Translations under genes and position numbers: made by a program
Shown here: piece by piece, positions 20,830 through 57,549 of the stretch
How the letters are laid out: every line of letters starts with the position of its first letter
Numbering within the stretch: position 1 is the stretch's first letter
The notes under the pieces: generated by a model
What the model saw: the letters and a program-made list of their open reading frames with translations, nothing else
The model's database searches: none
What the model was told of the DNA's origin: nothing
Assembly (NCBI GenBank): GCA_016185245.1
Contig: JACPNZ010000030.1
Span: 1-64,000 of the forward strand
Source of the DNA: Hyphomicrobiales bacterium
Lineage (GTDB): Bacteria; Pseudomonadota; Alphaproteobacteria; Rhizobiales; Aestuariivirgaceae
Direction: 5' to 3'
Length of the DNA: 64,000 nt

Positions 20830-21870
20830 CTAACTGGAATTGCCCAATTCGCCGGTACTCTCCCTGGCGATGAGGCGGAAGCCGAGGTCGATCTGGCGCT
20901 GCTTGGGCCGGCGGCCGCTGCCGCGGATGATTTCGAGAATGATTTCGCCGGCGCGCCGCGCCATCTCGTAACGCGGCGTGGCAATCGTGCTCAATGACGG
21001 ACAGGCCGAGGCGGCGACTTCGAGATCGTTGAAGCCGACGATCGAAAGATCCCGTGGGACGCCAAAGCCGCGCCGCTGGCACTCGAACAGCGCCCCCAGC
21101 GCCAGATTGTCGTTGCCGCAGAAAATCGCGGTGGTGGATGGCCAACGGGCCAGAAGCTCGCCGAGGAGCTCGCCGCCCGAGGCAATGCTCGATGGCAGGT
21201 CGACCGATACCATCATCGGCGTGGCGCCGAATTCCCGGACGGCCTGCAGATAGCCATCGATGCGCTTCAGCGAACGCGAATCGAGCGGTGCGGAAATCTG
21301 CCCGACATGGCGATGGCCAAGGTCGAACAGGTGCCTTGCCGCCGCATAGCCGGCGTCCTGCTGCGACAGGCCGATATTGATGTCGATCGGCTTGGCAGCA
21401 AGTTCCATCGTCTGCACCACCGGAATGCCGGCCTGCTGCAGCGCCTTGCGGGCATGCGGCGTCTGCTCGATGCCGGCCAGCACGATGGCTTCCGGAAATT
21501 GCCCGAGCATGGTCAGGATCGCCTTCTCCTCGCGCCCCGGCATGTAGTGGGAGTTGAGAACCAACACCTGGATATCGGCGGGCACGAAGACGTCATGCAG
21601 GGCCCGCAGATAGTCGTTGAACACGCCGTTGGTCAGCGACGGGACGATGACCCCGATGCGCCCGGTGCGCCGCGAGGCGAGCGCACTGGCCAGTTGATTG
21701 GGCACGTAGGCGAGCGCCCGGGCGGCGGCATTCACCCGGTCGCGCAAGTCGAGCGACACCATCTCGGGCCGGCGCAAGGCGCGCGAGGCGGTGACCATGC
21801 TCACCCGGGCGCGGGCCGCAACATCGTGCAGGGTGACCCGCTTGGGTCGCGATTTGGGCGGCTTCTTCAT
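20830..21870 (-). CDS. LacI-family transcriptional regulator
   Basis: 346 residues. N-terminal helix-turn-helix and hinge: VTLHDVAARARVSMVTASRA, then LAYVPNQLASALASRRTGRI. The rest is a periplasmic-binding-protein-like sensor (TAIFCGNDNLALGALFECQ). It is of the GntR/gluconate-type subgroup that carries LSTIATPRYEMARRA. Divergent from the sugar importer genes that start at 22096, with a LacI-type half-symmetric site on their promoter, so it most likely represses that importer. Confidence 0.93.
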   Translation of the reverse strand: MKKPPKSRPKRVTLHDVAARARVSMVTASRALRRPEMVSLDLRDRVNAAARALAYVPNQLASALASRRTGRIGVIVPSLTNGVFNDYLRALHDVFVPADIQVLVLNSHYMPGREEKAILTMLGQFPEAIVLAGIEQTPHARKALQQAGIPVVQTMELAAKPIDINIGLSQQDAGYAAARHLFDLGHRHVGQISAPLDSRSLKRIDGYLQAVREFGATPMMVSVDLPSSIASGGELLGELLARWPSTTAIFCGNDNLALGALFECQRRGFGVPRDLSIVGFNDLEVAASACPSLSTIATPRYEMARRAGEIILEIIRGSGRRPKQRQIDLGFRLIARESTGELGNSS

Positions 21871-21960: not shown

Positions 21961-22095
21961 TCACTTTATCGGGTGGCCGGCACTATACCCGATCAGTGGT
22001 AATAATAAAGCGCCTAAGGACAGCAGAGACCCAACAAAGTTCTCTGAATGAAGCCTGTGATCATCAACATGCTTAGTCTCCAGGGAGGAGCTCAA

Positions 22096-23238
22096 ATGAA
22101 ACCGATGTCCGATCTACTCCGCTTTGCCAGCGTGGCAGCCGTTCTCGCGGCCGCGATCACTCTTTCCACCGCGGCCCAGGCCGCAGGACCCGAAGTTGTC
22201 GCCGGACCGTCGGCCGATCCGAAGTGCTTTGCACCGTGGGCCGCCGACACGAAATTCTTCAAGTTCCCGGCCAAGCCCGGTCCCTATCGCATAGCACTCG
22301 CCAACGGCTACATCGCCAACACCTGGCGCATCCAGATGATTCAGACGGCCAAGGCCTATGCCGCCCAGCCCGACGTCGCCGCCAAGCTGAAGGAATTCAA
22401 GGTGGTCTCGACCGGTGAAGACGTGCCGGCGCAGATCTCGGCGATCAACAACTTCATCGACTCGGGCTACGACGCAATCGTCGTCAACGCCCAGAATCCG
22501 ACGGCCTTCGGCCCGGTCATCAAGCGCGCCAAGGAAGCCGGGGTGATCCTGGTGGCCTTCGACAACATTCTCGACACCCAGGACGCGATCAACGTCAACG
22601 TCGACCAGAAGGGCCTCGGCGTGTTGTGGGCCAACTGGCTGATCGCCCATCTGCCCAACGGCGGCAAGATCCTCGAGGTGAAGGGTGTGGCCGGCACCTC
22701 GGTCGACACCGACCGCCACAACGGCATCCAAGAGACCCTCAAAGCCTCGGGTAAGAAATGGGAGATCACCGAAGTGGCCGGCAAGTGGGACGATGGCGTG
22801 GCCCAGAAAGTGACCGCCGACGCAATCGCCACCAACGGTCCCTTCGACGGCATAACCGCCCAGGGCGGCGACACCGGCGTGGTACAGGCGATGATCGACG
22901 CCAAGCAGCCCTTCGTGCCCTTCGGCGGCGAGACCGAGAACGGCTTCCGCAAGTTCTGTTCGAAGTATGCGGCCGACGGCCTCAAGTGCTCGTCGGCGGG
23001 CACCGGCCCGGCCCAGGTTGCGGTTGCCATCAAGACGGCGATCGCCGCCCTTGAGGGCCAGGTGGTTCCGCAATCGGTGAAGCTGCCGCTGGCCATCGTC
23101 GAAGATCCCAACTTCAAGGCCGGACAGGACTTCTTTCCCGACCAGTCCGACAACTTCTTCGTCGGCAATTCCTTCCCGACCTGCGGCATCAATTTCACCG
23201 CCCAGGAAATCATGGGACAGACCAAGGAAAACCAGTAG
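22096..23238 (+). CDS. Sugar ABC transporter substrate-binding protein
   Basis: 380 residues from the ATG at 22096, preceded by AGGGAGGAG; two upstream in-frame ATGs lack a site. Signal peptide ends AAQAAG near residue 29. The mature protein is a ribose-type (Peripla_BP_4) binding protein: GPYRIALANGYIANTWRIQM, IVVNAQNPTAFGPVIKRAKE, GITAQGGDTGVVQAMID. It delivers the sugar to the two permeases encoded downstream. Four cysteines in the C-terminal part may form disulphides. First gene of the operon. Confidence 0.92.
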   Translation: MKPMSDLLRFASVAAVLAAAITLSTAAQAAGPEVVAGPSADPKCFAPWAADTKFFKFPAKPGPYRIALANGYIANTWRIQMIQTAKAYAAQPDVAAKLKEFKVVSTGEDVPAQISAINNFIDSGYDAIVVNAQNPTAFGPVIKRAKEAGVILVAFDNILDTQDAINVNVDQKGLGVLWANWLIAHLPNGGKILEVKGVAGTSVDTDRHNGIQETLKASGKKWEITEVAGKWDDGVAQKVTADAIATNGPFDGITAQGGDTGVVQAMIDAKQPFVPFGGETENGFRKFCSKYAADGLKCSSAGTGPAQVAVAIKTAIAALEGQVVPQSVKLPLAIVEDPNFKAGQDFFPDQSDNFFVGNSFPTCGINFTAQEIMGQTKENQ

Positions 23239-23260
23239 TCTGATCCGAATGGCCTGACCG

Positions 23261-23290
23261 TGGCGTCGCGGAGTGACATTCGCGACGCCA
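23261..23290 (+). terminator. Intercistronic hairpin after the binding-protein gene
   Basis: Perfect 10-bp stem TGGCGTCGCG (23261-23270) with CGCGACGCCA (23281-23290), loop of 10 nt, followed by TCTTG. It can act as a partial terminator or 3'-end protector, so that the binding protein is made in excess over the ATPase and permeases. Confidence 0.6.
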
Positions 23291-23321
23291 TCTTGCAAGG
23301 GTTGACCGGGCGGGGGATTGC

Positions 23322-24866
23322 GTGACTGAAGCGGCGCCGTTGTTTTGTATGGAAGGCGTGTCCAAGCGCTATGGTGGCGTACGGGCGATCGAGAAGGCCG
23401 ATCTCGATGTGACGGCGGGCCGCATCCATGCGATCCTCGGCGAGAACGGCGCCGGCAAGTCCACCCTGATCAAGATCATGGCGGGGGTGGTGGCGCCCGA
23501 TGAAGGTCGCATGGCCCTGGACGGTCGCGCGGCGACCTTCGCCTCGCCGGCGGCCGCCAACCAGGCCGGCATCGTGTGCATCTTTCAGGAGCTCTCGCTC
23601 ATCCCCGACCTTTCGGTTGCCGACAATATCGTGATCAGCAATCCGCCGACCCGCTTCGGGATGATCGACCGCGGTGCCCAGCGCCGCATCGCCGAGGAGG
23701 CCCTGGCGCGCGCCGGGGCGTCCGACATCCACCCCCTGGCCCTCGTCAAGGACCTGCCCCTGTCGCGCCGGCAGATGGTGGAAATCGCCAAGGCGCTGGC
23801 CCGCAATCCGCGCATCCTCATCCTTGACGAGGCAACTTCGGCGCTGACGGCCGCCGATGTCTCGAAGGTCTTCATCGTCCTCAAGCGCCTGCGGGCCGAG
23901 GGCCTGGCGCTGCTCTACATCTCCCACCGCATGCACGAGATTGCCGAACTGGCGGACGAGTGCTCGGTCTTCCGCAACGGCCAGAAGGTCGCCACCTATG
24001 CCGCCGGAAGCAAGAGCGACAACGAGGTGGTCGAGCTGATGATCGGGCGGGAGTACAGTCATGTCTTTCCGCCCAAGCCGACGCGCCCAAAGTCCGAGAC
24101 TCCGCCGGTGCTCGAGACCCGCAAGCTCAGCTGGACCGAGCGGCTGCGCGACATTTCGTTTTCGGTGCGCGCCGGTGAGATCGTCGGGCTGGGCGGCCTC
24201 GACGGCCAGGGCCAGCGCGATCTGCTGCTGGCGTTGTTCGGCGTATTGCGCGGTTGCTCGGGCGAGATCCTGATCGACGGCAAGGCGGTCTCGATCGCCA
24301 GCCCGGCCGCCGCCAAGAGCAAGAAGATCGGCATGGCCCTGATCCCGGAGGATCGCAAGACCGAAGGTCTGATGCTGCCGATGACGGTGCGCGACAATCT
24401 ATCTTTCGCAGCGCTTGACCGGGTGTCGCATGGCGGCATCGTCGACCGCGAGGCCGAACGCCGCCTGATCGACGACATGATCAAACTCCTGGGCATCCGC
24501 ACGGCGGGCATCGATATCGCGGTTGGGGCCCTTTCCGGTGGCAATCAGCAGAAGGTGGTGATTGCCAAATGGCTGATGAACCAGCCGCGCATCATCCTGC
24601 TCAACGATCCCACCCGCGGCATCGATGTGGGAACCAAGCAGGAACTTTATCAGTTGCTGCGCAAGCTGGCCGATGCCGGGGCCGCAATCGTTTTCTATTC
24701 GACCGACTACGACGAGCTGATCGGCTGCTGCGACCGGGTCCTGGTGCTCTACGACGGCGCGGTCAAGCGCGAGCTGGTGGGGCCTGAAATCACCGAGCGG
24801 GCACTGATCGCCAGTGCGCTCAACATCGACATGGCGGAAGTCGGCAGGGCGGCGGTGACGGCATGA
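23322..24866 (+). CDS. Sugar ABC transporter ATP-binding protein, two-domain RbsA type
   Basis: 514 residues from a GTG at 23322, preceded by CGGGGGATT. Two nucleotide-binding domains. Domain 1 has GENGAGKSTLIKIMA and ILDEATSALT, with a modified signature LPLSRRQMVEIAKAL. Domain 2 has GLDGQGQRDLLLALFG in place of a standard Walker A, LSGGNQQKVVIAKWL and ILLNDPTRGIDVG. The degenerate second Walker A is usual in RbsA/XylG/MglA proteins. Powers the two permeases whose genes follow with 4-nt overlaps. Confidence 0.95.
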   Translation: MTEAAPLFCMEGVSKRYGGVRAIEKADLDVTAGRIHAILGENGAGKSTLIKIMAGVVAPDEGRMALDGRAATFASPAAANQAGIVCIFQELSLIPDLSVADNIVISNPPTRFGMIDRGAQRRIAEEALARAGASDIHPLALVKDLPLSRRQMVEIAKALARNPRILILDEATSALTAADVSKVFIVLKRLRAEGLALLYISHRMHEIAELADECSVFRNGQKVATYAAGSKSDNEVVELMIGREYSHVFPPKPTRPKSETPPVLETRKLSWTERLRDISFSVRAGEIVGLGGLDGQGQRDLLLALFGVLRGCSGEILIDGKAVSIASPAAAKSKKIGMALIPEDRKTEGLMLPMTVRDNLSFAALDRVSHGGIVDREAERRLIDDMIKLLGIRTAGIDIAVGALSGGNQQKVVIAKWLMNQPRIILLNDPTRGIDVGTKQELYQLLRKLADAGAAIVFYSTDYDELIGCCDRVLVLYDGAVKRELVGPEITERALIASALNIDMAEVGRAAVTA

Positions 24867-25843
24867 AGGACTGGCGCTTCTGGCTGGCCGAGCAACGCGG
24901 CACATTGCTGGCGGTCGGCATCTTCGTGATGATGTTCATCATCTATTCGTCCAATCACCCGGCCGGCTTCAGCCCCAATGTAGTGCAGACCGCCGCCAAC
25001 AAGGGCGTGCTTTTGGCTTTCGTCGCCATGGCCCAGGCGCTGGTCGTCATCACCGCCGGCATCGACCTGTCGGTCGGCATGATCTTCACTCTGACCAACT
25101 GCCTGGCCTCGTGGGTGGTGGTCGGCTCGCCCCTCCAGGTTGCCATGGGTGTCATTGTGGTGCTCGGTGTGGGCTCACTGTGCGGCGCCATCAATGGCGC
25201 TATCGTAATTTATGGGCGGCTGCAGCCGATCGTCGCCACCATCGCCACGGGGGCGGTTTATTTCGGCATCGCGCTGGCGCTCCGCCCAACGCCGGGCGGT
25301 GGCGTCGACGAAACCCTGGCCGACGCGATGACCGGACGGGTCTTCGGCGTGGTGCCGGCGAGTCTTGTGGTGCTCGCCGCCGTGGTCGCCGTCGTGTGGG
25401 TGCCATTCAGCCGCTCGGTGACGGGCCGGGCGGCCTACGCCACCGGGTCTTCCGAGGCTGCGGCCTATATGTCGGGCGTGCCGATCCGGCGCGCCAAGAT
25501 GGCGGCCTACACGCTCTCCGGTCTGCTGGCCTCGATCGGTGGCCTGTTTCTAACGTTCTTCACCTATACGGGCGATGCCGCCTATGCCAGCGGCAATGCC
25601 TACACGCTGTTCTCGATCGCCGCCGTGGTGCTGGGTGGGGTTTCGCTGTTCGGCGGCAAGGGTAGCGCCATCGGTGCGATCTTCGGTGCGCTCGCCTTCC
25701 GCACCATCGGCGACCTGCTTTTCGTCTTCGATTTCGACCCCCTGTGGCAACCGCTGTTCCAGGGGGTGGTGCTTCTTCTCGCCGTCAGCCTCGGGGCCTT
25801 CGGCCTGTTCCGCGTACGCAACCGCCTGGATTGGTTTGGATGA
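24863..25843 (+). CDS. Sugar ABC transporter permease (RbsC type), first
   Basis: 326 residues with about nine or ten hydrophobic helices. Family motif in the middle is ALVVITAGIDLSVGMIFTLT; the C-terminal part carries AAVVLGGVSLFGGKGSAIGA, the loop that contacts the ATPase. Start ATG overlaps the ATPase stop (ATGA). With the next gene it forms a heterodimeric channel. Confidence 0.94.
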   Translation: MKDWRFWLAEQRGTLLAVGIFVMMFIIYSSNHPAGFSPNVVQTAANKGVLLAFVAMAQALVVITAGIDLSVGMIFTLTNCLASWVVVGSPLQVAMGVIVVLGVGSLCGAINGAIVIYGRLQPIVATIATGAVYFGIALALRPTPGGGVDETLADAMTGRVFGVVPASLVVLAAVVAVVWVPFSRSVTGRAAYATGSSEAAAYMSGVPIRRAKMAAYTLSGLLASIGGLFLTFFTYTGDAAYASGNAYTLFSIAAVVLGGVSLFGGKGSAIGAIFGALAFRTIGDLLFVFDFDPLWQPLFQGVVLLLAVSLGAFGLFRVRNRLDWFG

Positions 25844-26814
25844 GCGACCTCAGCACCACCCGCATGCCCGCCTTCATGCGCCGCCTCGATCCGGCGGTGA
25901 CCACCGCATTCGTCTGTATCCTGGTTCTGCTGCTGGTCGGCAGCATGTACTCGCGCAATTTCCTGTCGCCGGAATATCTGCTGCAGCAGCTCAAGGTGGC
26001 GTCGTTTCTCGGCATCATCGCCAGCGGCATGATGCTGGTCATCCTGCTCGGCCAGATCGACCTGTCGCTGCCCTGGGTGGTGACGGTTGGGGCGATGATG
26101 TCGAGCGCCGTGGCGGGCTATGGCGAATTGGGCTCGCTTCTTTCGGTGCCCTTCGGCATCCTGTGCGGCATCGCCATCGGTCTGATCAACGGCGTCGGCG
26201 TCGCCTATCTGCGCATCCCCTCGATGATCATCACGCTCGCCACCAACGCCGTGGCCCAGGGGTTGATGGTCGTCTACACTGGTGGCTTCTCGCCCCGCGA
26301 CAACGCCTCGGCGGCGATGCGCTATCTGGCAACCGGCGAAGCCATTCCGCATGTGCCCAATGCCGTCATCTGCTGGCTCGTGGTCGGTGCCGGCACGGTC
26401 TTTTTGCTCACCCGGACGACCTTCGGCCGCTCGATCTACGGCATCGGCAACCGCGAGCGGGCCGCCTATCTGTCGGGCATCGATACCAGGCGTGTGGTGA
26501 TGACCGTCTTTGCCATCTCGGGCGGCCTCGCGGCCTTCGGCGGGGTGCTCCTGGCGGGCTATGCCTCAAAGGCGGCGCAATCGATGGGCGACGCCTATCT
26601 GCTTCCCGCTATCGCCGCGGTGGTGCTGGGCGGCACCTCGATCCTCGGCGGGCGCGGCAGCTATCTCGGCACGGTCGCGGGCGTCATGCTGGTAACCCTG
26701 CTCCTGTCGATCCTGTCGGTCATGCAGATGCCCGAGTTCGGCCGGCAGATCATCTACGGCGTGGTGATCATCGGCATGCTGCTGCTCTACGGCCGGGAAC
26801 GCATCCAGCGCTGA
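25840..26814 (+). CDS. Sugar ABC transporter permease (RbsC type), second
   Basis: 324 residues from the ATG at 25840, which overlaps the preceding stop by 4 nt. Motifs: MLVILLGQIDLSLPWVVTVG, AAVVLGGTSILGGRGSYLGT. It differs clearly from its neighbour, so the importer uses two different permease chains. Its last 28 nt overlap the 3' end of the convergent dehydrogenase gene. Confidence 0.94.
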   Translation: MSDLSTTRMPAFMRRLDPAVTTAFVCILVLLLVGSMYSRNFLSPEYLLQQLKVASFLGIIASGMMLVILLGQIDLSLPWVVTVGAMMSSAVAGYGELGSLLSVPFGILCGIAIGLINGVGVAYLRIPSMIITLATNAVAQGLMVVYTGGFSPRDNASAAMRYLATGEAIPHVPNAVICWLVVGAGTVFLLTRTTFGRSIYGIGNRERAAYLSGIDTRRVVMTVFAISGGLAAFGGVLLAGYASKAAQSMGDAYLLPAIAAVVLGGTSILGGRGSYLGTVAGVMLVTLLLSILSVMQMPEFGRQIIYGVVIIGMLLLYGRERIQR

Positions 26815-27965
26815 TCGCCGGTCACCAAGTCGGCTGTCAGGTCGGCGATCCGTGCCGCTCCCATGAGCGCCATGGCCCGATCGATCTCGCGCCGGAAAAT
26901 CTCGAGCACATGGGCAACCCCGGCCTCGCCGGCAACCGCCAGTCCCCACAGCTGCGGACGGGCGATGAGGCATGAGGCGGCCCCCAGGGCGAGCGCCTTC
27001 ACCACATCGGTGCCGCGCCTGATGCCGCCGTCGAGCAGCACCGGAATGCGGCCAGCAACGGCGTCGACCACGGCGGGCAGGGCGGCAATCGATGACAGGG
27101 TGCCGTCGAGCTGGCGGCCGCCATGGTTCGACACGATCACCGCATCGCAGCCCATGGCAGCAGCTTGCCGGGCCTCATCGGGATGGAGGATGCCCTTGAT
27201 GATCAGCGGTCCTTTCCACACCTGGCGCAGGCGTTCGACATCGCGCCATGACATGGAAGGGTCGAGCAGTTCCGCCATGCGCTTGGCCAGGCTGCCGATA
27301 TCGACCGGCTGGCCTTGGCGCACATAGTTGCCGAAGCTGATGCGCGGTAGCTCGTTCCGCATGCGCCAGAGCCACGGCAGTTTCCCGGCCATGGCCAGGA
27401 GATCGCCCGCCCGGAACCGGGGCGGAATGGCAAAGCCGTTGCGCACATCGCGCTCGCGGTTGCCCAGCATCTGATTGTCGGTGGTCAGCAGCAACCCGTC
27501 ATAGCCCGCCGCCGCCGCCCGGTTGGCGAGTTCTTCGGTGAAGCCGCGGTCGCGATAGACGAAGACCTGCATCCAGCGTGGGCCGGCGCCGATCCGCGGC
27601 AGATCCTCGAGGCGGCAGACGGAGCCGTGGCTCAGACAATAGGCCGTGCCTGCCGCCGCCGCGGCGCGCGCCGCCGCCTTCTCGCCCTCGGGCCACATCA
27701 GGCCGGCAAGCCCGGTGGGACCGATCAGCAAGGGCAGCGCCAGCCGGTGCCCGAGGAGATCGACCGACAGGTCGCGCTGTCCCGGGCCATTGAGCGGCCG
27801 GGGGATCAGACTCACCCGCTGAAAGTCGAGTTCGTTGCGGCGGAGCGTTGTCTCGTCATCGGCTCCGCCGTCGGTGAAATCGAAGACCGGACGCGGCAGA
27901 ATTCGCCGGGCCTCATCGCGCACCGCAGGGATGCTGTAGCACCGGCCGCGCCAGCTCTCAGTCAT
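26787..27965 (-). CDS. FMN-dependent alpha-hydroxy acid dehydrogenase
   Basis: 392 residues from the ATG at 27965; an ATG at 27986 would add seven residues. The family signature SNHGGRQLDG contains the catalytic histidine, followed by DGGIRRGTDVVKALALGA for the FMN phosphate. IKGILHPDEARQAAAMGCDA and the start MTESWRGRCYSIPAVRDEAR are typical of LldD and mandelate dehydrogenase relatives. It oxidises a 2-hydroxy acid such as L-lactate to the keto acid. Convergent with the sugar permease (28-nt overlap) and divergent from the RraA-like operon. Confidence 0.92.
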   Translation of the reverse strand: MTESWRGRCYSIPAVRDEARRILPRPVFDFTDGGADDETTLRRNELDFQRVSLIPRPLNGPGQRDLSVDLLGHRLALPLLIGPTGLAGLMWPEGEKAAARAAAAAGTAYCLSHGSVCRLEDLPRIGAGPRWMQVFVYRDRGFTEELANRAAAAGYDGLLLTTDNQMLGNRERDVRNGFAIPPRFRAGDLLAMAGKLPWLWRMRNELPRISFGNYVRQGQPVDIGSLAKRMAELLDPSMSWRDVERLRQVWKGPLIIKGILHPDEARQAAAMGCDAVIVSNHGGRQLDGTLSSIAALPAVVDAVAGRIPVLLDGGIRRGTDVVKALALGAASCLIARPQLWGLAVAGEAGVAHVLEIFRREIDRAMALMGAARIADLTADLVTGDQRWMRSRP

Positions 27966-28098
27966 TGGCAAACCCGTCCCGCTCACTTTCCCAGCTTAGG
28001 ACAGCTATTCGCGAAGCAACAACTGTCGTCACCTGACTTGTGGCAATTTTTTCGGAGCCGTGCAAAATTGTGGGAGGTAAGGGCAGGGGGCTGACAGT

Positions 28099-28788
28099 GT
28101 GATCGAAGACCCACCGATCCTCCGCGTCCGGCGTAATTTTCCACGCCCGGCGCAGGAATTGGTTACGGCACTGACGGGTGCCGCGACCGGACACGTTGTC
28201 GATGCCATGGGCGGTGGTGGTGCCCTGGATGGGCGCATCAGGCCGCTTTCCGCCACGCAGCCCGGGTTTTGCGGCGTTGCGATCACCTGCGATGCGGGCC
28301 CCGCCGACAACTTGGCACTCTTTGCCGCCCTCGACGCGGGTGAGCCGGGCGACGTGATCGTTGCTGCAACCGGGGGCCATCTGGCCGCCGCCGTGACCGG
28401 CGATCTCCTGATCGGCATGGCCAGAAATTGCGGCATCGCCGCATTGGTCACCGACGGAGCGGTGCGCGATGTTGCGGGAATTCTGGCGGTCGGTGTGCCG
28501 GTCTTGTGTGCCGGCGTTTCGGCCAATTCGCCGGCCCGCAACGGACCGGGTACCGTCGGCCTGCCGATCGTGATCGGCGGCATTGCCGTGCGCGCCGGTG
28601 ATATCGTCATTGGCGACGGCGATGGGGTCGCGATCGTACCGCAAGCCAGAGCCGCCGAGGTCATCGCCCGGCTTGCCGAGGTGCGCGCCGCCGAGGCCAC
28701 CCTCGAGGCCAAAGTCAAATCCGGCCTGCGCCTGCCCGAATCGATTGCGGCCGTCCTGGCATCGAGCCGGGTGGAGAAACTTCCGTGA
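28099..28788 (+). CDS. RraA / HMG-CHA aldolase family protein
   Basis: 229 residues from a GTG at 28099, after GGGAGG. The RraA fold motifs are GGGALDGRIRPLSATQPGFC, GDVIVAATGGHLAAAVTGDL and VTDGAVRDVAGI. The family includes RNase E inhibitor RraA and metal-dependent aldolases for 4-hydroxy-4-methyl-2-oxoglutarate and 4-carboxy-4-hydroxy-2-oxoadipate. The G-x20-R-D pattern of the aldolases is met here, and the adjacent hydrolase supports a catabolic role over RNA regulation. Confidence 0.8.
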   Translation: MIEDPPILRVRRNFPRPAQELVTALTGAATGHVVDAMGGGGALDGRIRPLSATQPGFCGVAITCDAGPADNLALFAALDAGEPGDVIVAATGGHLAAAVTGDLLIGMARNCGIAALVTDGAVRDVAGILAVGVPVLCAGVSANSPARNGPGTVGLPIVIGGIAVRAGDIVIGDGDGVAIVPQARAAEVIARLAEVRAAEATLEAKVKSGLRLPESIAAVLASSRVEKLP

Positions 28789-29837
28789 CGCCCTCGGGCC
28801 ATGCACAGGCGGCAGCGCCTGCGAACCCGGTTCGCGCCGACTGGCTCGCCCGGTTGACCGAGCCCATCCTCGAACCCCACCTGCCGATCGTCGATCCGCA
28901 CCACCATCTTTGGGAGCGGCCCGGCTGGCGCTACCTGCTCCCCGATCTGCTGCTCGATATGAACAGCGGCCACAACATCGTGGCGACCGTCTATGTGCAG
29001 GCGCGCGCCTTCTATCGCGCCGGCGGCCCTACGGAAATGAAACCGGTGGGCGAGGTCGAGTTCGCCAACGGTGCGGCGGCGATGAGCGCCAGCGGCATCT
29101 ATGGCATAGCTAGAATCTGTGCCGGCATCGTCGGCCACGCCGACCTGACGCTCGGCAGCCGGGTCGAGCCGGTCCTGTCGGCCCTCATTCAGGCCGGCGG
29201 CGGCAGGCTCAGCGGCATTCGTCACATCACCACCTGGGACGCCGATGCTTCGCTTCTCAATCCGGCCTATCCGACCCGGCCCGGACTCATGGCCGACCCC
29301 ACATTCCGCGAAGGCTTCGCCCAGCTCGGGCGCCTTGGCCTTTCCTTCGATGCCTGGCTCTTTCACCCGCAGATCGACGAGCTCACGGGCCTTGCGGCGG
29401 CTTTTCCGCAAGTGCCGATCGTGCTCGACCATTTTGGCGGGCCGATCGGCGCCGGCGCTTACCGTGGTACCGCCGACGAGGTGTTCCGCCACTGGGCGGC
29501 GTCGATCAGAAAACTGGCGGTGCACCCCAATGTCTTCGTCAAGGTCGGCGGGCTTGGCCAGGCCGTCAACGGCTTTCTTCTGAGCGAGCGACCCGAGCCG
29601 CCATCCTCGGAGGCGCTGGCAGCGCTGATGCGGCCCTATGTGGAGGTTACTCTCGAGGCGTTCGGGGCATCGCGGGCGATGTTCGAGAGCAACTTTCCGG
29701 TAGACAAGGCCTCCTACAGCTATCCGGTGTTCTGGAACGCCTGCAAGCTCTTGGCCCGGGGTGCGAGCCCCTCCGAGACGGCAGACCTGTTCAGCGGCAC
29801 GGCATCGCGCTTCTATCGCCTCGACGCCGGCGGCTGA
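28785..29837 (+). CDS. Amidohydrolase family 2 (lactonase-like) protein
   Basis: 350 residues from a GTG that overlaps the RraA-like stop by 4 nt. LPIVDPHHHLWERPGWRYL is the metal-binding start (H-x-H) of the family that includes 2-pyrone-4,6-dicarboxylate hydrolase and fuconolactonase. PIVLDHFGGPIGAG carries a third histidine and MFESNFPVDKASYSY the final active-site part. Coupled translation with an RraA-like aldolase fits the protocatechuate 4,5-cleavage type of pathway or a related acid degradation. Confidence 0.85.
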   Translation: MTPSGHAQAAAPANPVRADWLARLTEPILEPHLPIVDPHHHLWERPGWRYLLPDLLLDMNSGHNIVATVYVQARAFYRAGGPTEMKPVGEVEFANGAAAMSASGIYGIARICAGIVGHADLTLGSRVEPVLSALIQAGGGRLSGIRHITTWDADASLLNPAYPTRPGLMADPTFREGFAQLGRLGLSFDAWLFHPQIDELTGLAAAFPQVPIVLDHFGGPIGAGAYRGTADEVFRHWAASIRKLAVHPNVFVKVGGLGQAVNGFLLSERPEPPSSEALAALMRPYVEVTLEAFGASRAMFESNFPVDKASYSYPVFWNACKLLARGASPSETADLFSGTASRFYRLDAGG

Positions 29838-29919: not shown

Positions 29920-30207
29920 ATGGACAGGATCGGATTTGTCGGCCTCGGCCGCATGGGTCGCCCGATGGCGTCGAGCCTTTGCCGGAAGGGTTTCCGGCTC
30001 ATCGCCTATGACATCAACCCGGAGGCCCTCGCGGCGGTTGAGCAACTGCAGGCCCATGCGGCAGCGAGTGTCGTCGAAGTCGCCGCCGATGCCGCCAAAC
30101 TGTCAGCTGAATACCGTCTCAGCACAGACCGTGGCGAAACTCCGAACCCTTGCCCCGCGCTCTCCGACCCTTTACCAAGTCGGCAATTTCGTGAGGGTGC
30201 AGCATGA
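29920..30207 (+). pseudogene. Truncated 3-hydroxyisobutyrate dehydrogenase-like gene
   Basis: The start MDRIGFVGLGRMGRPMASSL then GFRLIAYDINPEALAAVEQ is the dinucleotide-binding motif of the family. Homology stops near residue 55, after SVVEVAADA, and is followed by 40 unrelated residues up to a stop at 30207 that overlaps the gatB start. Full-length members have about 290 residues and a C-terminal helical domain, absent here. It was probably the third gene of the RraA/amidohydrolase operon and was cut by a deletion that joined it to gatB. Confidence 0.7.
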
Positions 30208-34570: not shown

Positions 34571-36073
34571 CTAGGCGAAAGTGCCGGTCGCCGGCTTGCT
34601 CGCCCGGCCGGCGAGATAGTGCCCGATGGCCCGGACCGTGCCGTCGCGCCAGATGCGATCCAGGGCGTCGCGGAAGGCGCGACGGAACACCGGCGAGCGC
34701 CCGACATCGCCGTAGATGTCGTCCATGCCCAGCCACAGATCCGGGTTCTCTTTGGCGGCCCGCGCCAGAGGCTGCAGCTTCGACCAGTTCGGATCGTTGG
34801 GCTCGATCGGCTTGCCGCTGTCGGTGGTGCCGCAGCAATAGCGGCACCACAGGGCCGACTCGAGCGCCAGGCCGTCGATGCTCCGACCGGCGCGCAGCCG
34901 CTCGGCGATCGGCGGCACGATGAACTTGGGCTGGCGGTTGGAACCATCCAGGCACAGCCTGCGGATGGTGTCGCCGATCTTCGGATTGGCGAAACGGCGA
35001 ACGATAAGCTTGTAGTAGTCCTGAAGGTCGGTATCGGGAACCGGCGGAACCGTGGGGATCACTTCCCCGGTCTCGACCTTGTCGAGGTATGCCCGGATCA
35101 GGGGATGCGCCATCGCCTCATGCACGAAATGCACGTCGAGCAGGCCGCCGGCATAGGCAATGATCGCATGGCCGCCATTGAGTATGCGGATCTTCATGTG
35201 CTCGTAGGGGGTGACATCCTTGACGAAGGCAACGCCCACTCGTTCGAGGGCCGGCCGGCCAAGCGAAAAATTGTCCTCGATCACCCACTGCTTGAATTCT
35301 TCGCAGAACACCGGCCAGGCATCCTCGATGCCGAAGGCCTTGCTGGTCATCTGGCGCTCGCGGTCGGAGGTCGCCGGCGTGATGCGATCGACCATGGCAT
35401 TGGGAAAGGCGACATGGGCGGCGATCCAATCGGCGAGTGCCGGATCGAACAGCCGGGCCAGTCCTGCGACCGCGTTGCGTGTCACCACGCCATTGTGCGG
35501 GACATTGTCGCAGGACATGACGGTGAAGGGGGGGGTGCCCGTTTCCCGGCGCAGCGCCAGCCCGCGCAGAATGATGCCGAAAGCGCTTTCCGGGTGCAGG
35601 GGATTGGCCGCATCCTTGCGGATTGCCGGATGCAGGGGATCGAACCTGCCGGTCGCCGGGTCGATCATGTAGCCGCCCTCGGTCACGGTGAGCGAGACGA
35701 TGCGGATCGCCGGATCGGCGAGCGTCTTGATGAGGGTTTGGCGATCGTCGGGCGCAATGAAGCCGATCATCGGTCCGGTGATGCGGGCGCTGCTGCGCTC
35801 GTTGTCCTGCTCGACGATGGTGGTCAGATAGTCCTGGGCTGCGAGCACCTCGCGCATCTTGACGTCAAAGGGCATGACTCCGGCGCCGATGATGGCCCAG
35901 TCGTGATCGATTCCGAGATTGAACAGGTCGTCGAGATAGACGGCGAGATGGGCACGGTGAAAATTGCCGACGCCGATGTGGACGATGCCGGCGGAGAGCT
36001 CATCGCGCCGGTATTTCGGCACCGCCGCGGTGCTGGCGATCTGCGGCAGATTGGCAAGCGAAAGTCGGGTCAT
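34571..36073 (-). CDS. mtlK: Mannitol 2-dehydrogenase family protein
   Basis: 500 residues, the usual length of the long-chain polyol dehydrogenases. IVHIGVGNFHRAHLAVYLDD is the NAD-binding start; the catalytic region has KIRILNGGHAIIAYAGGLLD, where K-x4-N/H is conserved. It oxidises mannitol to fructose, or a related polyol. Last gene of the polyol operon, 7 nt after the sorbitol-dehydrogenase-like gene, matching the smo/mtlK order known from Rhodobacter sphaeroides. Confidence 0.93.
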   Translation of the reverse strand: MTRLSLANLPQIASTAAVPKYRRDELSAGIVHIGVGNFHRAHLAVYLDDLFNLGIDHDWAIIGAGVMPFDVKMREVLAAQDYLTTIVEQDNERSSARITGPMIGFIAPDDRQTLIKTLADPAIRIVSLTVTEGGYMIDPATGRFDPLHPAIRKDAANPLHPESAFGIILRGLALRRETGTPPFTVMSCDNVPHNGVVTRNAVAGLARLFDPALADWIAAHVAFPNAMVDRITPATSDRERQMTSKAFGIEDAWPVFCEEFKQWVIEDNFSLGRPALERVGVAFVKDVTPYEHMKIRILNGGHAIIAYAGGLLDVHFVHEAMAHPLIRAYLDKVETGEVIPTVPPVPDTDLQDYYKLIVRRFANPKIGDTIRRLCLDGSNRQPKFIVPPIAERLRAGRSIDGLALESALWCRYCCGTTDSGKPIEPNDPNWSKLQPLARAAKENPDLWLGMDDIYGDVGRSPVFRRAFRDALDRIWRDGTVRAIGHYLAGRASKPATGTFA

Positions 36074-36080
36074 GCTGGGT

Positions 36081-36850
36081 TCAACTCATCCACTGGCCGC
36101 CGTCGACATTGAAGGTCTGCGCCACCACGTAGTCGCTCTCTGGCGAGGCGAGGAAGATGGCGCAGCCCACGTGATCTTCAGGTTTGCCCATGCGGCCGAA
36201 GGGAACGCCTTCGCCGACCAGGCGCTTCTTCTCGCCTTTGGGCCTTCCCTCATATTTGGCAAAGAGCGCATCGACCTCGTCCCACATGGGCGTGTCGACC
36301 ACGCCGGGGGAAACGCCGTTGACATTGATGCGATGCTTGATCAGCGCCAGCCCGGCCGACTGGGTGATCGAGATGACGGCGGCCTTGGAGGCGCAGTAGA
36401 CCGCCACCAGCGGCTCGCCGCGGCGCCCGGCCTGGGAGGCCATGTTGATGATCTTGCCGCCCCGGCCGCGCCCGATCATGCTTTTGGCCACGGCCTGCAG
36501 GGTGAACAGCAGGCCCTTGACGTTGACCGCGAAGATCCGGTCGTAGCTCTTCTCGGTGATCTCCTCGATCGGCGCCATATCGAAGATCGCCGCGTTGTTG
36601 ACCAGGATATCGATACCACCGGCCTTCGCTTCCACCGCCGCCACCATGGCGTCGATCGAGTCCTTCCTGGTCACATCGAGTGGTACGGCAAAGCTGCCGT
36701 TGCCGATCTCCCGCGCCGCCGCCACGGCCACATCATGCTCGATGTCGGCGATGGCGAGGCGGGCCCCTTCGCGGGCATAGCCCTCGACGATGGCCCGGCC
36801 GATGCCGCGGGCCCCGCCGGTGACCACCGCCACCTTGTCCTTGAGCCGCA

Positions 36851-36851
<1 letters not shown>
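36081..36851 (-). CDS. smoS: Short-chain dehydrogenase, sorbitol/galactitol dehydrogenase type
   Basis: 256 residues. Cofactor motif TGGARGIGRAIVEG, D-V at position about 60, NNAAIFDMAPI, catalytic MASQAGRRGEPLVAVYCASK (Ser, then Y-x3-K), and the C-terminal NVDGGQWMS. This is very close to the SmoS class that oxidises sorbitol to fructose with NAD. Start ATG overlaps the transporter ATPase stop (TGATG). Confidence 0.93.
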
Positions 36852-37828
<977 letters not shown>

Positions 37829-38659
37829 CTACTTCACCGCTCCGAATGTGAGACCACGCACCAGCTGCTTCTGGGCGAACCAGCCGAGCACCAGGATGGG
37901 GGCGATCGCCATGGTCGAGGCGGCCGAGAGCTTGGCCCAGAACAGTCCCTCGGGACTCGAATAGGAGGCGATGAATTGGGTGAGGGGGGCGGCATCCTTG
38001 GTGGTCAGGCTCAAGGTCCAGAAGGCTTCGTTCCAAGCGAGGATGACATTGAGCAGGATGGTCGAGGCGATGCCGGGGATGGCCATGGGAGTGAGCACGT
38101 AGAGCAGCTCTTTGCCGATCGAGGCGCCGTCCATGCGGGCCGCTTCCAGGATCTCGCCCGGGATTTCCTTGAAGTAGGTGTAGAGCATCCAGATGATGAT
38201 CGGCAGGTTGAGCAGCATCAGCACGGCGATGATGCCGCCGCGGGTATCGAGCAGATGGAAATCGCGAAAGATCAGATAGATCGGAATGAGGGCGCCGACC
38301 GGCGGCATCATCTTGGTCGACAGCATCCACATCAACAGGTCCTTGGTGCGTTTGCCGGGCGCAAACGCCATCGCCCAGGCGGAGGGAATGGCGATGAGCA
38401 ATGCGAAGATGGTAGACCCCAGCGCCAGCACGACCGAATTGAAGGCAAAAAGCAGGTAGTTGGAGCGTTCCTGCACGATGCCGTAATTCTCCAGGGTCCA
38501 TTGGAAGAACAGGAATTTCGGCGGCAGCTCGATAGCATCGCCTTCGGTCTTGAAACTGGTCAGGATGGTCCACAGGATCGGAAAGAAAATCACGAAGGCG
38601 ATAGCCCAGGCGAAGGCGGTGAAAAACATCCGGCGTCGGGTGGAAACGGCGCGCGCCAT
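37829..38659 (-). CDS. smoG: Polyol ABC transporter permease, MalG type
   Basis: 276 residues with six hydrophobic segments. The coupling-loop motif EAARMDGASIGKELLYVLTP meets the family form EAA-x2-DGA-x6-I-x-LP. The short cytosolic N-terminus is followed by FAWAIAFVIFFPILWTILTS. It pairs with the next permease. Stop codon directly adjoins the ATPase start. Confidence 0.94.
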   Translation of the reverse strand: MARAVSTRRRMFFTAFAWAIAFVIFFPILWTILTSFKTEGDAIELPPKFLFFQWTLENYGIVQERSNYLLFAFNSVVLALGSTIFALLIAIPSAWAMAFAPGKRTKDLLMWMLSTKMMPPVGALIPIYLIFRDFHLLDTRGGIIAVLMLLNLPIIIWMLYTYFKEIPGEILEAARMDGASIGKELLYVLTPMAIPGIASTILLNVILAWNEAFWTLSLTTKDAAPLTQFIASYSSPEGLFWAKLSAASTMAIAPILVLGWFAQKQLVRGLTFGAVK

Positions 38660-38662
38660 GGC

Positions 38663-39571
38663 TCAGGCCTCCAGGTTCTTGCCAATCATCCGCATCAGGA
38701 AGAACGCGACGATGTTGGCGAGGATGACCGCAATGATGCCGCCGGCGGAGGCGCCGCCGATGTCGTTGGATATCAGACCGTACTGGTACACCAGGAACGG
38801 CATGTTTCCGGCCCGGCCGCCCGAACCGGTGACGTAGATTTCGGCGAAGACGTTGAGCAGGAAGATGGTTTCGATGAGGATCACCACGGTGATCGGCCGG
38901 GCCAGGTGCGGCAGCACCAGGTGCCAGAAATAGGAGAGCGGCGGCGCCCCATCCATCTCGGCGGCTTCCTTCTGCTCCTCGTCGAGCGATTGCAGCGCGG
39001 TGAGCAGAATGAGGGTGGCGAAGGGCAGCCATTGCCAAGCGACCATGATGACGATCGCCGTCATCGGCGCATGGGCGAACCAGTCGATCGGCTGCAACCC
39101 GAAAAGCTGAAACAGCCAGGCGAGGAACCCCGACACCGGGTGCATCATCATGTTCTTCCACACCAGCGCGCTGACCGTCGGCATGACGAAGAAGGGTGCT
39201 ATGATCATCAGGCGCACGATGTTGCGGCCGAAAATCGCCTGGTCGAGCAGCAGCGCCAGCAGGATGCCGCCGATGACGCTGATGGCGAGCACCCAGCCGA
39301 CCAGCTGCAGCGAGTTTCCAATGGCCCGGAAGAACGCCGGATCGGTGAGGAAGTAATAGTAGTTGGAGGCCCCGGCCAGGCAGCGGTTGGCGGGATCGGT
39401 CAGGGCCCAAGGCGTCAGCGGCGAGCAGGCCGGATTGGGATCGAGCAGATTGTAGCGCAGAAGCGAGAACCAGATGGTCATCGCCAGCGGCACGATCATC
39501 CACAGGAAGAGCGCGATCACCGAAGGTGCTACGGCAATGCGGCCAAGGGCGCGGGTTTGCTGCGTCGCCAT
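38663..39571 (-). CDS. smoF: Polyol ABC transporter permease, MalF type
   Basis: 302 residues with six hydrophobic segments. Coupling-loop motif KEAAEMDGAPPLSYFWHLVLP. N-terminal VIALFLWMIVPLAMTIWFSL. Separated from the next gene by 3 nt. Forms the sugar-alcohol channel with SmoG. Confidence 0.94.
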   Translation of the reverse strand: MATQQTRALGRIAVAPSVIALFLWMIVPLAMTIWFSLLRYNLLDPNPACSPLTPWALTDPANRCLAGASNYYYFLTDPAFFRAIGNSLQLVGWVLAISVIGGILLALLLDQAIFGRNIVRLMIIAPFFVMPTVSALVWKNMMMHPVSGFLAWLFQLFGLQPIDWFAHAPMTAIVIMVAWQWLPFATLILLTALQSLDEEQKEAAEMDGAPPLSYFWHLVLPHLARPITVVILIETIFLLNVFAEIYVTGSGGRAGNMPFLVYQYGLISNDIGGASAGGIIAVILANIVAFFLMRMIGKNLEA

Positions 39572-39614
39572 GATGAATGCTCTTCGGAACAGAGTTCAGT
39601 CGGCGGCCCGGTAT

Positions 39615-39642
39615 GGCTGCCCGGATGTTACTCCGGGCAGCC
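39615..39642 (-). terminator. Intercistronic hairpin after the polyol-binding-protein gene
   Basis: Perfect 10-bp stem GGCTGCCCGG (39615-39624) with CCGGGCAGCC (39633-39642) and an 8-nt loop. No T-run follows on the minus strand. It lies between the binding-protein and permease genes and probably protects the upstream message or reduces read-through. Confidence 0.6.
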
Positions 39643-39663
39643 AGACTTCCAGGGGAGGAACGA

Positions 39664-40974
<1,311 letters not shown>

Positions 40975-41017
40975 CCTCCCTTGGGCGCAGCTGAGCTTTT
41001 GCTAAGCTGAAGAGCAT

Positions 41018-41047
41018 ATATTCGCTATGAAACTCGCAGGGTGTCAA
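41018..41047 (-). promoter_or_regulatory. Sigma-70-type promoter of the polyol operon
   Basis: On the minus strand TTGACA (41042-41047), an 18-nt spacer and GAATAT (41018-41023). It lies 44 nt before the smoE start. The upstream bases contain several GCGAT/GCAAC half-repeats that could bind the SorC-type regulator encoded just upstream, but no clean palindrome is seen. Confidence 0.65.
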
Positions 41048-41139
41048 CGGCGATTCGTTGCTGCGTTGCACTATCGCATCGCACAAATCTCAGCACACCG
41101 CTGATTAATCATGAGAATTGAGATATGGGCTTTTGCCAT

Positions 41140-42093
41140 TTATTCCAGCAAAAGTTCGGCCATCTGCTCGTTGGTGATCAGGCCGTTGATCAATTTCCCG
41201 CGCAGCGCCCCGCGGGCGGCGCGCAATCTGGCCGGCACCATGACCACGCCGATGACCTTCTTGCGGGCCGGCTGCTCGAGCGGCACGCTGAGTACCCGGT
41301 CGTTGGTCAGGCCGTCGATCAGCTGGCCCTCGCCATTGAAGGCCCAGCCGGTGATCTCGCCGACCGCACCGGCGCGCACCAGGGCGCGAATCTCGTCCTG
41401 GCGCACGAAGCCGTCGCGCAGCAGCGCCGCATTGTCGTCGACACTGCCGACGCCGACGAAGGTGACATCGGCCTGCTGGGCCAGCTCGATCACATTGCGC
41501 AGGGTCTTCTGGTCGAGCAGCAGGTTTTTTTCGTGAACCGTGTTGGCAATCACCGGCAGCGGCATCGGGTAATGCGGCGCCTTCACCCGGTCGCCGATGC
41601 GGCTCACCACATCGAACAGCGAGGCCGAACCATCGGGCGCGATATTGCCAACGAGCGAGATCACCTTGTGCTGCGGGCAGTCCATCGGGCTGATCTGTTC
41701 GGCCATGGCGCGCAGCATACGGCCTGTACCCATGGCGGCGATGACCGGATGCTGGGAGATGAGATAGCGCTCGAGTTCCGCCGCCGCCGCCTCGGCGACG
41801 CCGAGCGTGTCCGAGTTCGAACTGGGGTCGGCGGGAGCCACCTCGCACATCAGGAGGCCGTAGGTGTCTTTCAAGCGTTCCGACAGCTCGATGCAACGGC
41901 CGATGCGGTGATCGAGGCGGACCTTGATCAGCTTCTGGCTGACCGCCAGCGAGACCAGCCGCTGGGCCGTCTGGCGCGACACGCCGAGCTTGCGGGCGAT
42001 TTCGTCCTGGGTGTTGCCGGCGATGTAATAGAGCCAGCCAGCCCGTGCTGCGTCGTCAAGCCTGTCGGATTCGATTTCGGGTTTGCGTGGCAC
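41140..42093 (-). CDS. SorC-family (DeoR-like) sugar regulator
   Basis: 317 residues. N-terminal HTH YYIAGNTQDEIARKLGVSRQ then TAQRLVSLAVSQKLIKV. The effector domain (VIAAMGTGRMLRAMAEQ, VTFVGVGSVDDNAALLRDG, ALVRAGAVGEITGWAFN) binds phosphosugars or sugars in SorC/DeoR proteins. It sits on the same strand just upstream of the polyol transport operon and most likely controls it. Confidence 0.92.
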   Translation of the reverse strand: MPRKPEIESDRLDDAARAGWLYYIAGNTQDEIARKLGVSRQTAQRLVSLAVSQKLIKVRLDHRIGRCIELSERLKDTYGLLMCEVAPADPSSNSDTLGVAEAAAAELERYLISQHPVIAAMGTGRMLRAMAEQISPMDCPQHKVISLVGNIAPDGSASLFDVVSRIGDRVKAPHYPMPLPVIANTVHEKNLLLDQKTLRNVIELAQQADVTFVGVGSVDDNAALLRDGFVRQDEIRALVRAGAVGEITGWAFNGEGQLIDGLTNDRVLSVPLEQPARKKVIGVVMVPARLRAARGALRGKLINGLITNEQMAELLLE

Positions 42094-53860: not shown

Positions 53861-53873
53861 GGCTGGCCTCACG

Positions 53874-55381: not shown

Positions 55382-55398
55382 GCATTCCGACTAAAGCT

Positions 55399-55426
55399 CC
55401 GCCGGGTTCGTTCGCGAGCCCGGCGG
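55399..55426 (+). terminator. Hairpin and T-run after the binding-protein gene
   Basis: Stem CCGCCGGG (55399-55406) with CCCGGCGG (55419-55426), 12-nt loop, followed by TTTTCTGTT. This is a normal intrinsic terminator form and the ATPase gene follows at 55501. Some read-through or a second promoter is needed for the downstream genes. Confidence 0.75.
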
Positions 55427-55500
55427 TTTTCTGTTGAGCCCCGGCAAGGGCCGGTCTAGGCTGTAAGAAAAACATAACATAGGGGAGGCCGCGCGGAGCA

Positions 55501-57542: not shown

Positions 57543-57549
57543 GACGGTC

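Follow-up and report, generated by a model that had tools for sequence, protein, structure and literature searches.

The RraA-like gene and its protein

In this work, we have analysed a stretch of 64,000 nucleotides from a Hyphomicrobiales bacterium (GenBank assembly GCA_016185245.1, contig JACPNZ010000030.1; hereafter the window), which carries a gene for an RraA-like protein of 229 amino acids (28099..28788, plus strand). Its match to Pfam PF03737, the profile models, the residues kept in orthologues and the predicted structure indicate a probable metal-dependent 2-oxo-acid (pyruvate-type) aldolase. A GTGA start/stop overlap, read directly in the plus strand at 28785..28788, joins this gene to a second one (28785..29837, plus strand) coding for a lactonase-like hydrolase of 350 amino acids, assigned to the COG3618/Amidohydro_2 group by PF04909, alignments and fold. 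Downstream (29920..30207, plus strand) lies a broken dehydrogenase gene of the HIBADH family which, compared with an intact relative, retains about 55 N-terminal residues and misses the remainder. On the minus strand, divergent from the RraA-like gene and separated from it by 112 bp, is the gene of a flavin mononucleotide (FMN)-dependent 2-hydroxyacid dehydrogenase (26787..27986; Pfam, NCBIfam and homology). The initial annotation had placed the RraA-like and hydrolase reading frames at 28099-29837 and had described their four-nucleotide overlap and the truncated third gene, all of which we found again; the divergent FMN dehydrogenase, the sugar transporter presented below and the atypical nature of the hydrolase as a partner had not been reported there. 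The GTG start of the RraA-like gene agrees with the N-terminus MIEDPP in a consensus of 52 aligned sequences.

The RraA-like protein matches PF03737, 'Aldolase/RraA', with 119 bits (E 2.5e-34). No NCBIfam model reaches its cut-off with this protein: PRK06201 gives 164 against 231, the models for aldolases of 4-hydroxy-4-methyl-2-oxoglutarate (HMG) and 4-carboxy-4-hydroxy-2-oxoadipate (CHA) give 124.4 against 179 (NF006731) and 108.1 against 304.5 (TIGR02798, LigK), and NF006875, the model for the RNase E regulator RraA, gives 47 bits against 136. In the AlphaFold model (mean predicted local distance difference test score, pLDDT, 96.8; built from 38 sequences), the best match found by Foldseek in the PDB is 3noj, the HMG/CHA aldolase of Pseudomonas putida, with template-modelling (TM) scores of 0.86 (on the query) and 0.84 for an alignment of 225 columns at 27% identity. 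The sequence search also places 3noj first (5.4e-21), with Arg123, Asp124 and Glu199 aligned under identical numbers, and Glu199 sits on the C-terminal helix of the model (residues 182-207). The protein thus resembles the P. putida enzyme in fold, in length and in Gly101, Arg123, Asp124, Glu199 and Asn71; it differs from it in its low overall identity, in several residues tied to substrate or phosphate, and in a gene context that is sugar-related rather than aromatic. It shares the core fold with E. coli RraA (1q5x) and with RraAS2 of Streptomyces (5x15), which also has an Asp-X20-Arg-Asp motif, but E. coli RraA aligns over only about 140 columns (TM 0.57-0.58 by Foldseek) and the window protein scores far under the cut-off of the RraA model. 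A protein of the E. coli RraA type is ruled out by model score, by length (229 against about 160 amino acids, with the added C-terminal helix) and by fold coverage.

The residues were compared across an orthologue set derived from 106 non-redundant loci, 15 of which were dropped because identity was below 42% or the match was shorter than 185 residues. The 91 remaining loci are the window itself, 63 from the best 80 of 357 relatives in a scan of named genomes, 14 from the same family and 13 from a panel of the class; they include a 'Rhizobiales' metagenome-assembled genome (MAG; 68% identity) and an 'Aestuariivirgaceae' MAG (55%). Gly101, Arg123 and Asp124 are present in 91 of 91, Glu199 in 90 of 90, Asp102 in 88 of 91 (Glu in the other three) and Asn71 in 71 of 91, and the window protein holds all of Gly101, Asp102, Arg123, Asp124 and Glu199. 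We take Asp102 to be a catalytic residue.

For the P. putida enzyme it is reported that Arg123 stabilises the enolate, that Asp124 and Glu199 bind the metal, and that Arg40, His75, Thr145, Lys147 and Arg195 are tied to phosphate or substrate (PMC5065237). At these last positions the window protein is different. Arg40 is replaced by Gly39 (followed by Gly40; Arg in 10 of 91 orthologues), His75 by Phe75 (Phe in 33 of 91), Thr145 by Pro145 (Pro in 78 of 91) and Arg195 by Val195 (58 of 90 with Val, 28 with Ile), while the change of Lys147 to Arg147 is conservative (Arg in 57 and Lys in 26 of 91). An Arg occurs one place off in about half of the orthologues, at position 40 in 44 of 91 (Gly in the window protein) and at position 196 in 48 of 90 (Arg in the window protein), which argues against over-reading the changed residues. 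In the active site as predicted, the pyruvate half is retained and the remainder is unlike that of the HMG/CHA aldolase; HMG is an unlikely substrate.

Genes that recur beside the RraA clade

Neighbour profiles were built from clusters of neighbouring proteins and typed by Pfam. Of the 698 clusters, 176 have more than one member, and only 30 of these 176 were typed by Pfam and a few by NCBIfam, so other pathway genes may be overlooked. Within 1.5 kb of the RraA gene, 18 of the 91 loci carry an FMN_dh gene, 12 a D-2-hydroxyacid dehydrogenase and four an Ldh_2 gene, and 34 carry any of the three. A COG3618 hydrolase of the usual type lies within the same distance in 10 loci, eight of them also with FMN_dh; the hydrolase profile itself counts 11, one of which is the different hydrolase of the window, cross-matched weakly at 75 bits. 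In locus L078, from the cultivated Acuticoccus kalidii, the genes for RraA, FMN_dh and the usual hydrolase adjoin one another. FMN_dh occurs with an amidohydrolase cluster of any kind in 12 loci, four of which have a PF01979 amidohydrolase (L053, L055, L073 and L092) and one of these, L053, both kinds. When random positions were drawn in the same loci (500 rounds), the means for any dehydrogenase, FMN_dh and the hydrolase profile were 13.2, 6.5 and 3.4 and the maxima 23, 13 and 8, against 34, 18 and 11 observed. For 69 loci the sequence extends 1.5 kb or more to either side of RraA; among these, one of the three dehydrogenases is present in 27 and FMN_dh in 13. Thirteen control loci around homologues of the window hydrolase (187,763 bases) contain no FMN_dh, no Ldh_2 and a single D-2-hydroxyacid dehydrogenase. 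The genome under study has eight FMN_dh matches, of which three are near-full genes, and with so few, chance adjacency to RraA should by our estimate be below 1% per locus.

That one dehydrogenase family is exchanged for another beside a single RraA clade is the strongest indication of an RraA protein acting on a 2-oxo acid. In our interpretation the FMN dehydrogenase, rather than the overlapping hydrolase, is the key partner of RraA. Among solved structures, L-lactate oxidase constructs and hydroxyacid oxidase 1 come closest to the window's FMN dehydrogenase. It resembles human hydroxyacid oxidase 1 and the glycolate oxidase family (FMN_dh) in full-length homology and in the Lys and His-X-X-Arg segments, which it retains, and departs from hydroxyacid oxidase in having Phe in place of a Tyr of the YDYY segment; we presume the roles of these residues from general knowledge of the family. 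With this Tyr replaced, the enzyme may use a substrate other than lactate or glycolate. The genome has a second RraA-like gene (G000:C8:81416-82024, 37% identity), which is accompanied by an Ldh_2 gene at no more than 2.4 kb and by a sugar permease at about 5.8 kb.

The initial annotation had used the GTGA overlap as an argument for function. Among 86 RraA loci with enough downstream sequence, counting the window, ten show a start/stop overlap of four bases that leads into at least 80 open codons, so it is an ordinary feature of these loci; in one of them (L055) the overlapping partner is FMN_dh. The overlap suggests that the RraA-like protein and the hydrolase may be co-expressed. As an argument for function it is weak, since no hydrolase-RraA adjacency appears outside the window among the class-panel matches listed, with a few candidates scored per genome; the recurrent 2-hydroxyacid dehydrogenase is the better argument. 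In the literature, among the matches listed by searches whose coverage mostly excludes subscription journals, no paper was found that treats RraA together with both an FMN dehydrogenase and a hydrolase of the COG3618 group.

Other arrangements were seen around RraA-like genes. In seven loci (L093, L099, L100, L102, L104, L106 and L108) a cytochrome P450 gene directly adjoins RraA, and five of these have a match to a GMC oxidoreductase on the other side. Three MAGs (L134, L138 and L139), two of them from Desulfobacteraceae and the third from another proteobacterium, have three tandem RraA-like genes followed by a gene for an aldehyde ferredoxin oxidoreductase.

The hydrolase, the broken dehydrogenase and the surrounding genes

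The assignment of the overlapping gene to a lactonase-type hydrolase, made in the initial annotation, is right at the family level. The protein matches PF04909 (Amidohydro_2) with 127 bits (E 1.8e-36), and its nearest solved folds are the COG3618 amidohydrolase of Burkholderia multivorans (4dlf, 4.3e-14, and 4do7), then 6uvz, and then the putative pyrone-dicarboxylate hydrolases 4i6k (3.3e-9) and 2ffi (7.0e-9). We take 4dlf/4do7 to be an L-fucono-1,5-lactonase. The window hydrolase differs from it in sharing 25% identity and in reaching 71.9 bits with the L-fucono-1,5-lactonase model NF052480, whose cut-off is 400. Its own predicted model has a mean pLDDT of only 76.6 (10 sequences). The His-X-His and the later His of the Amidohydro_2 barrel are present, and His39, His41 and His216 are invariant in an alignment of 10 sequences. 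Asn303, within the ESNFPVDK segment that marks the subfamily, aligns with the Asp of FGSDWPV and with an Asp in 4dlf/4do7; from the work on LigI, we take this Asp, located where the last strand ends, to be the catalytic general base. All 29 of the best-scoring homologues that were fetched have Asn at this position, as have 8 of 10 further homologues, with Asp in the two others (L037 and a copy on contig C57 of the same genome). As Asn is common in the wider family, Asn303 need not mean an altered activity.

The hydrolase usually linked to RraA and FMN_dh belongs to another COG3618 subfamily, and its orthologue (77%) in this genome is the C57 gene, which has neither RraA nor FMN_dh within the 19.9 kb examined. 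With a limit of E 1e-25, homologues of the window hydrolase (best 68%) were present in 73 of 385 genomes of the class, often several per genome. Outside the window none of those among the matches listed adjoins RraA, the closest being about 9.5 kb away (G335), in adjacency searches that scored at most five and seven candidates per genome and may therefore miss cases. The genes flanking 13 close homologues revealed no shared partner on inspection. In two other genomes (L130 and L131), a homologue with 43% identity is located some 3 kb from a pair of RraA and D-2-hydroxyacid dehydrogenase genes. The pair of RraA and hydrolase in the window is thus real but local, and it may be the swap of one lactonase-like gene for another.

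In the broken dehydrogenase gene, read from the ATG at 29920, 40 of 54 residues agree with an intact relative of the HIBADH family (L047); homology is lost after about 55 residues, and the frame stops at 30207, just inside the start (30204) of a gene that we take from its sequence to be gatB. When the window was searched by tblastn with the intact relative, no further significant piece of the gene turned up (next best E 0.53). In L047 the intact gene and RraA are about 6 kb apart, and the locus also carries the usual hydrolase and FMN_dh; L055 has a piece of the same cluster, again some 6 kb from RraA. Among NCBIfam models, the L047 protein scores best with sulfolactaldehyde reductase (321 against a cut-off of 348), followed by HIBADH and tartronate-semialdehyde types. 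A HIBADH gene occurs within 1.5 kb of RraA in three loci (L079, L084 and L221), and FMN_dh is near RraA in none of them.

Upstream of the RraA-like gene, beyond the FMN dehydrogenase gene, profile searches identified a gene for a LacI-family regulator (20830..21870, minus strand; the top model is a gluconate-type GntR, 366 bits against a cut-off of 400) and a plus-strand sugar ATP-binding cassette (ABC) transporter that occupies 22048-26814. The transporter consists of a sugar-type periplasmic binding protein (Peripla_BP_4, 22048..23238), an ATPase with two ABC stretches (23322..24866), a first permease (BPD_transp_2, 24863..25843) and a second permease (25744..26814, given as reading-frame limits, the real start being probably further in). 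The order is therefore regulator, transporter, FMN dehydrogenase, and then the divergent RraA-like and hydrolase genes. Homology did not narrow the substrate of the binding protein, whose matches scatter over many sugar-binding proteins, and at the settings used no inverted repeat that could serve the regulator as operator was detected between the FMN dehydrogenase and RraA-like genes. These neighbours agree with the acid-sugar pathway that was one of the two pathway types considered in the initial annotation.

Further away, the window holds a gene of the enolase superfamily (MR_MLE_C; 52760-53872, minus strand), possibly a sugar-acid dehydratase, near which genes resembling an ABC transporter (54248-58392) were recognised by eye. 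By eye, too, the minus-strand cluster at 34571-42093 is like a polyol operon, with what we take to be a mannitol-dehydrogenase-like protein, a short-chain dehydrogenase, an ABC transporter and a regulator, and the reading frame at 50226-51431 (plus strand) resembles a transposase of the IS110 type.

Proposed function and its alternatives

We consider it probable that the RraA-like protein is a divalent-metal-dependent lyase with the HMG/CHA-aldolase fold, which cleaves a 2-oxo acid in a catabolic module for sugar lactones or sugar acids. The fold, the conserved catalytic residues and the recurrent neighbours were computed, and from them we infer the activity and the order of the steps. A sugar or its lactone would be imported by the sugar ABC transporter, the COG3618 hydrolase would open the lactone, and the FMN dehydrogenase would oxidise the resulting 2-hydroxy acid to a 2-oxo acid. 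The RraA-like enzyme would then split this acid, most likely by a retro-aldol reaction, into pyruvate (or hydroxypyruvate) and an aldehyde, and a HIBADH-family dehydrogenase, broken here and intact in some relatives, may process a product. A route from lactonase through dehydratase to aldolase is known from the L-fucose and L-rhamnose pathways. In the genome under study and in ten relatives with FMN_dh beside RraA, no match to PF13378 (enolase superfamily) or PF00920 (IlvD/EDD) lies within 19 kb on the RraA contig; the nearest dehydratase-family matches are at 19 kb (G057) and at 24 kb (the window), both on very long contigs, and several of the other contigs are short, 3.4 to 12 kb. The lack of a dehydratase gene near RraA fits oxidation, and not dehydration, as the step before RraA, though it is no proof, and the dehydratase route is not favoured here.

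Several observations weigh against our proposal. Fifty-seven of the 91 orthologues have none of the three dehydrogenases within 1.5 kb, and even where both sides could be seen only 27 of 69 loci have one; moreover, the 91 loci are the best matches of searches and not a random sample. A cytochrome P450 lies within 1.5 kb of RraA in 7 of 91, and other orthologues adjoin other genes, so that the clade need not share one substrate. The hydrolase that adjoins RraA here is rarely linked to it elsewhere, and Asn occupies the position at which its general base would be expected. Finally, all 11 genomes inspected for dehydratases have genes of these families elsewhere.

An RraA-like protein could instead regulate RNase E, its metabolic neighbours being incidental. 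Membership of PF03737 and an RNase E/G protein encoded in the genome would suit this role, and two proteins that exceed RraA by about 60 residues, RraAS1 and RraAS2, are reported to inhibit RNase ES, and RraAS2 also to bind it (PMC10126417). RraAS2 (5x15) aligns over residues 71-214 and has the same Asp-X20-Arg-Asp motif as the window protein, which counts against our proposal: neither motif nor length is by itself enough to rule out a regulator. We nevertheless regard a regulator as very unlikely, given the low score with NF006875, the metal and enolate residues fixed in 91 orthologues, the recurrent hydroxyacid-dehydrogenase neighbours and the Ldh_2 gene near the second RraA-like gene. The initial annotation had argued for an aldolase and not an RNase inhibitor; the aldolase-like character stands, and the exclusion of an RNase inhibitor is only probable because of RraAS2. 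Enzymes with another chemistry also have to be considered. FlDet, an RraA-family enzyme of oxidative alginate breakdown, is reported to act on a 2-keto-3-deoxy sugar acid as a 2-keto-3-deoxy-glucarate dehydratase/decarboxylase (PMC8563752), and in a similar manner the dehydrogenase could make the 2-oxo acid and the RraA-like protein remove CO2 (and water) from it. The same conserved residues could serve such a decarboxylase, 3noj is also named an oxaloacetate decarboxylase, and among 98 clustered loci there are carboxylate-transporter genes (DctM in 13, TctC in 6), a context that does not fit one substrate. On the other side, the transporter in the window is of the sugar type, and FlDet, which has another reaction and other neighbours, is reported as only 20% identical to the HMG/CHA aldolase (PMC8563752). 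On balance, this alternative seems unlikely.

The other pathway type of the initial annotation, meta-cleavage of protocatechuate (or gallate 4,5-cleavage) with HMG as substrate, is not supported. Here the RraA-like protein would be the HMG/CHA aldolase and the hydrolase a pyrone-dicarboxylate hydrolase, and the best solved relative of the first and the fold of the second, near putative pyrone-dicarboxylate hydrolases, are what one would expect. In riboflavin breakdown a pyrone hydrolase and a retro-aldolase (LumW and LumX) are reported to act in one pathway (PMC12746152), a likeness of role, and with the conservative Arg147 and the displaced Arg at 40 or 196, relatives may still have some of the anion site. 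Both aldolase models remain under their cut-offs, though, four of the five substrate or phosphate residues are replaced by Gly, Phe, Pro and Val, the neighbours are sugar genes, and the genome's sole match to the LigB family lies at a distance of about 114 kb. The pathway is ruled out as the principal explanation by the model scores, the changed residues and the distant LigB-family gene, and we give it hardly any credence.

A different question is whether the hydrolase belongs to the system, since RraA and the FMN dehydrogenase could be the true unit, which is compatible with the lyase function that we propose, and the overlapping hydrolase a gene that joined them later and whose activity is unrelated or has changed. 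This is quite possible, although we lean away from it. It would explain why homologues present in 73 of 385 genomes are not seen beside RraA outside the window among the matches listed, why the flanks of 13 of them have no common partner, why the usual hydrolase is retained on C57, away from RraA and FMN_dh, and why the subfamily has Asn for Asp. Against it stand the small number of candidates scored per genome, the 43% homologues near RraA and a D-2-hydroxyacid dehydrogenase in two loci, the co-expression suggested by the overlap and the frequency of Asn in the wider family. More tentatively, and with doubt, we suggest that a COG3618 lactonase, an FMN dehydrogenase and an RraA-fold aldolase could form in series a recurrent, undescribed module in which flavin oxidation replaces the dehydratase, and that in the window the usual lactonase may have left the operon and a distant, Asn-bearing paralogue with new chemistry may have taken its place.

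What do these results mean for genes named after RraA? Such genes are easily misread as regulators of RNA decay, whereas the protein described here is probably an aldolase-type enzyme that cuts a carbon bond and not the RNase brake that its name implies. About half of the initial interpretation held, and the finding is a useful correction and a modest surprise. Three families of 2-hydroxyacid dehydrogenases beside one RraA clade point to a concrete, testable function in at least some of its members. The pathway, if confirmed, would be a further route from sugar lactones or sugar acids to pyruvate, and it would give a role to an uncharacterised group of FMN dehydrogenases and of hydrolases of the COG3618 type, which in this analysis came mostly from Alphaproteobacteria.

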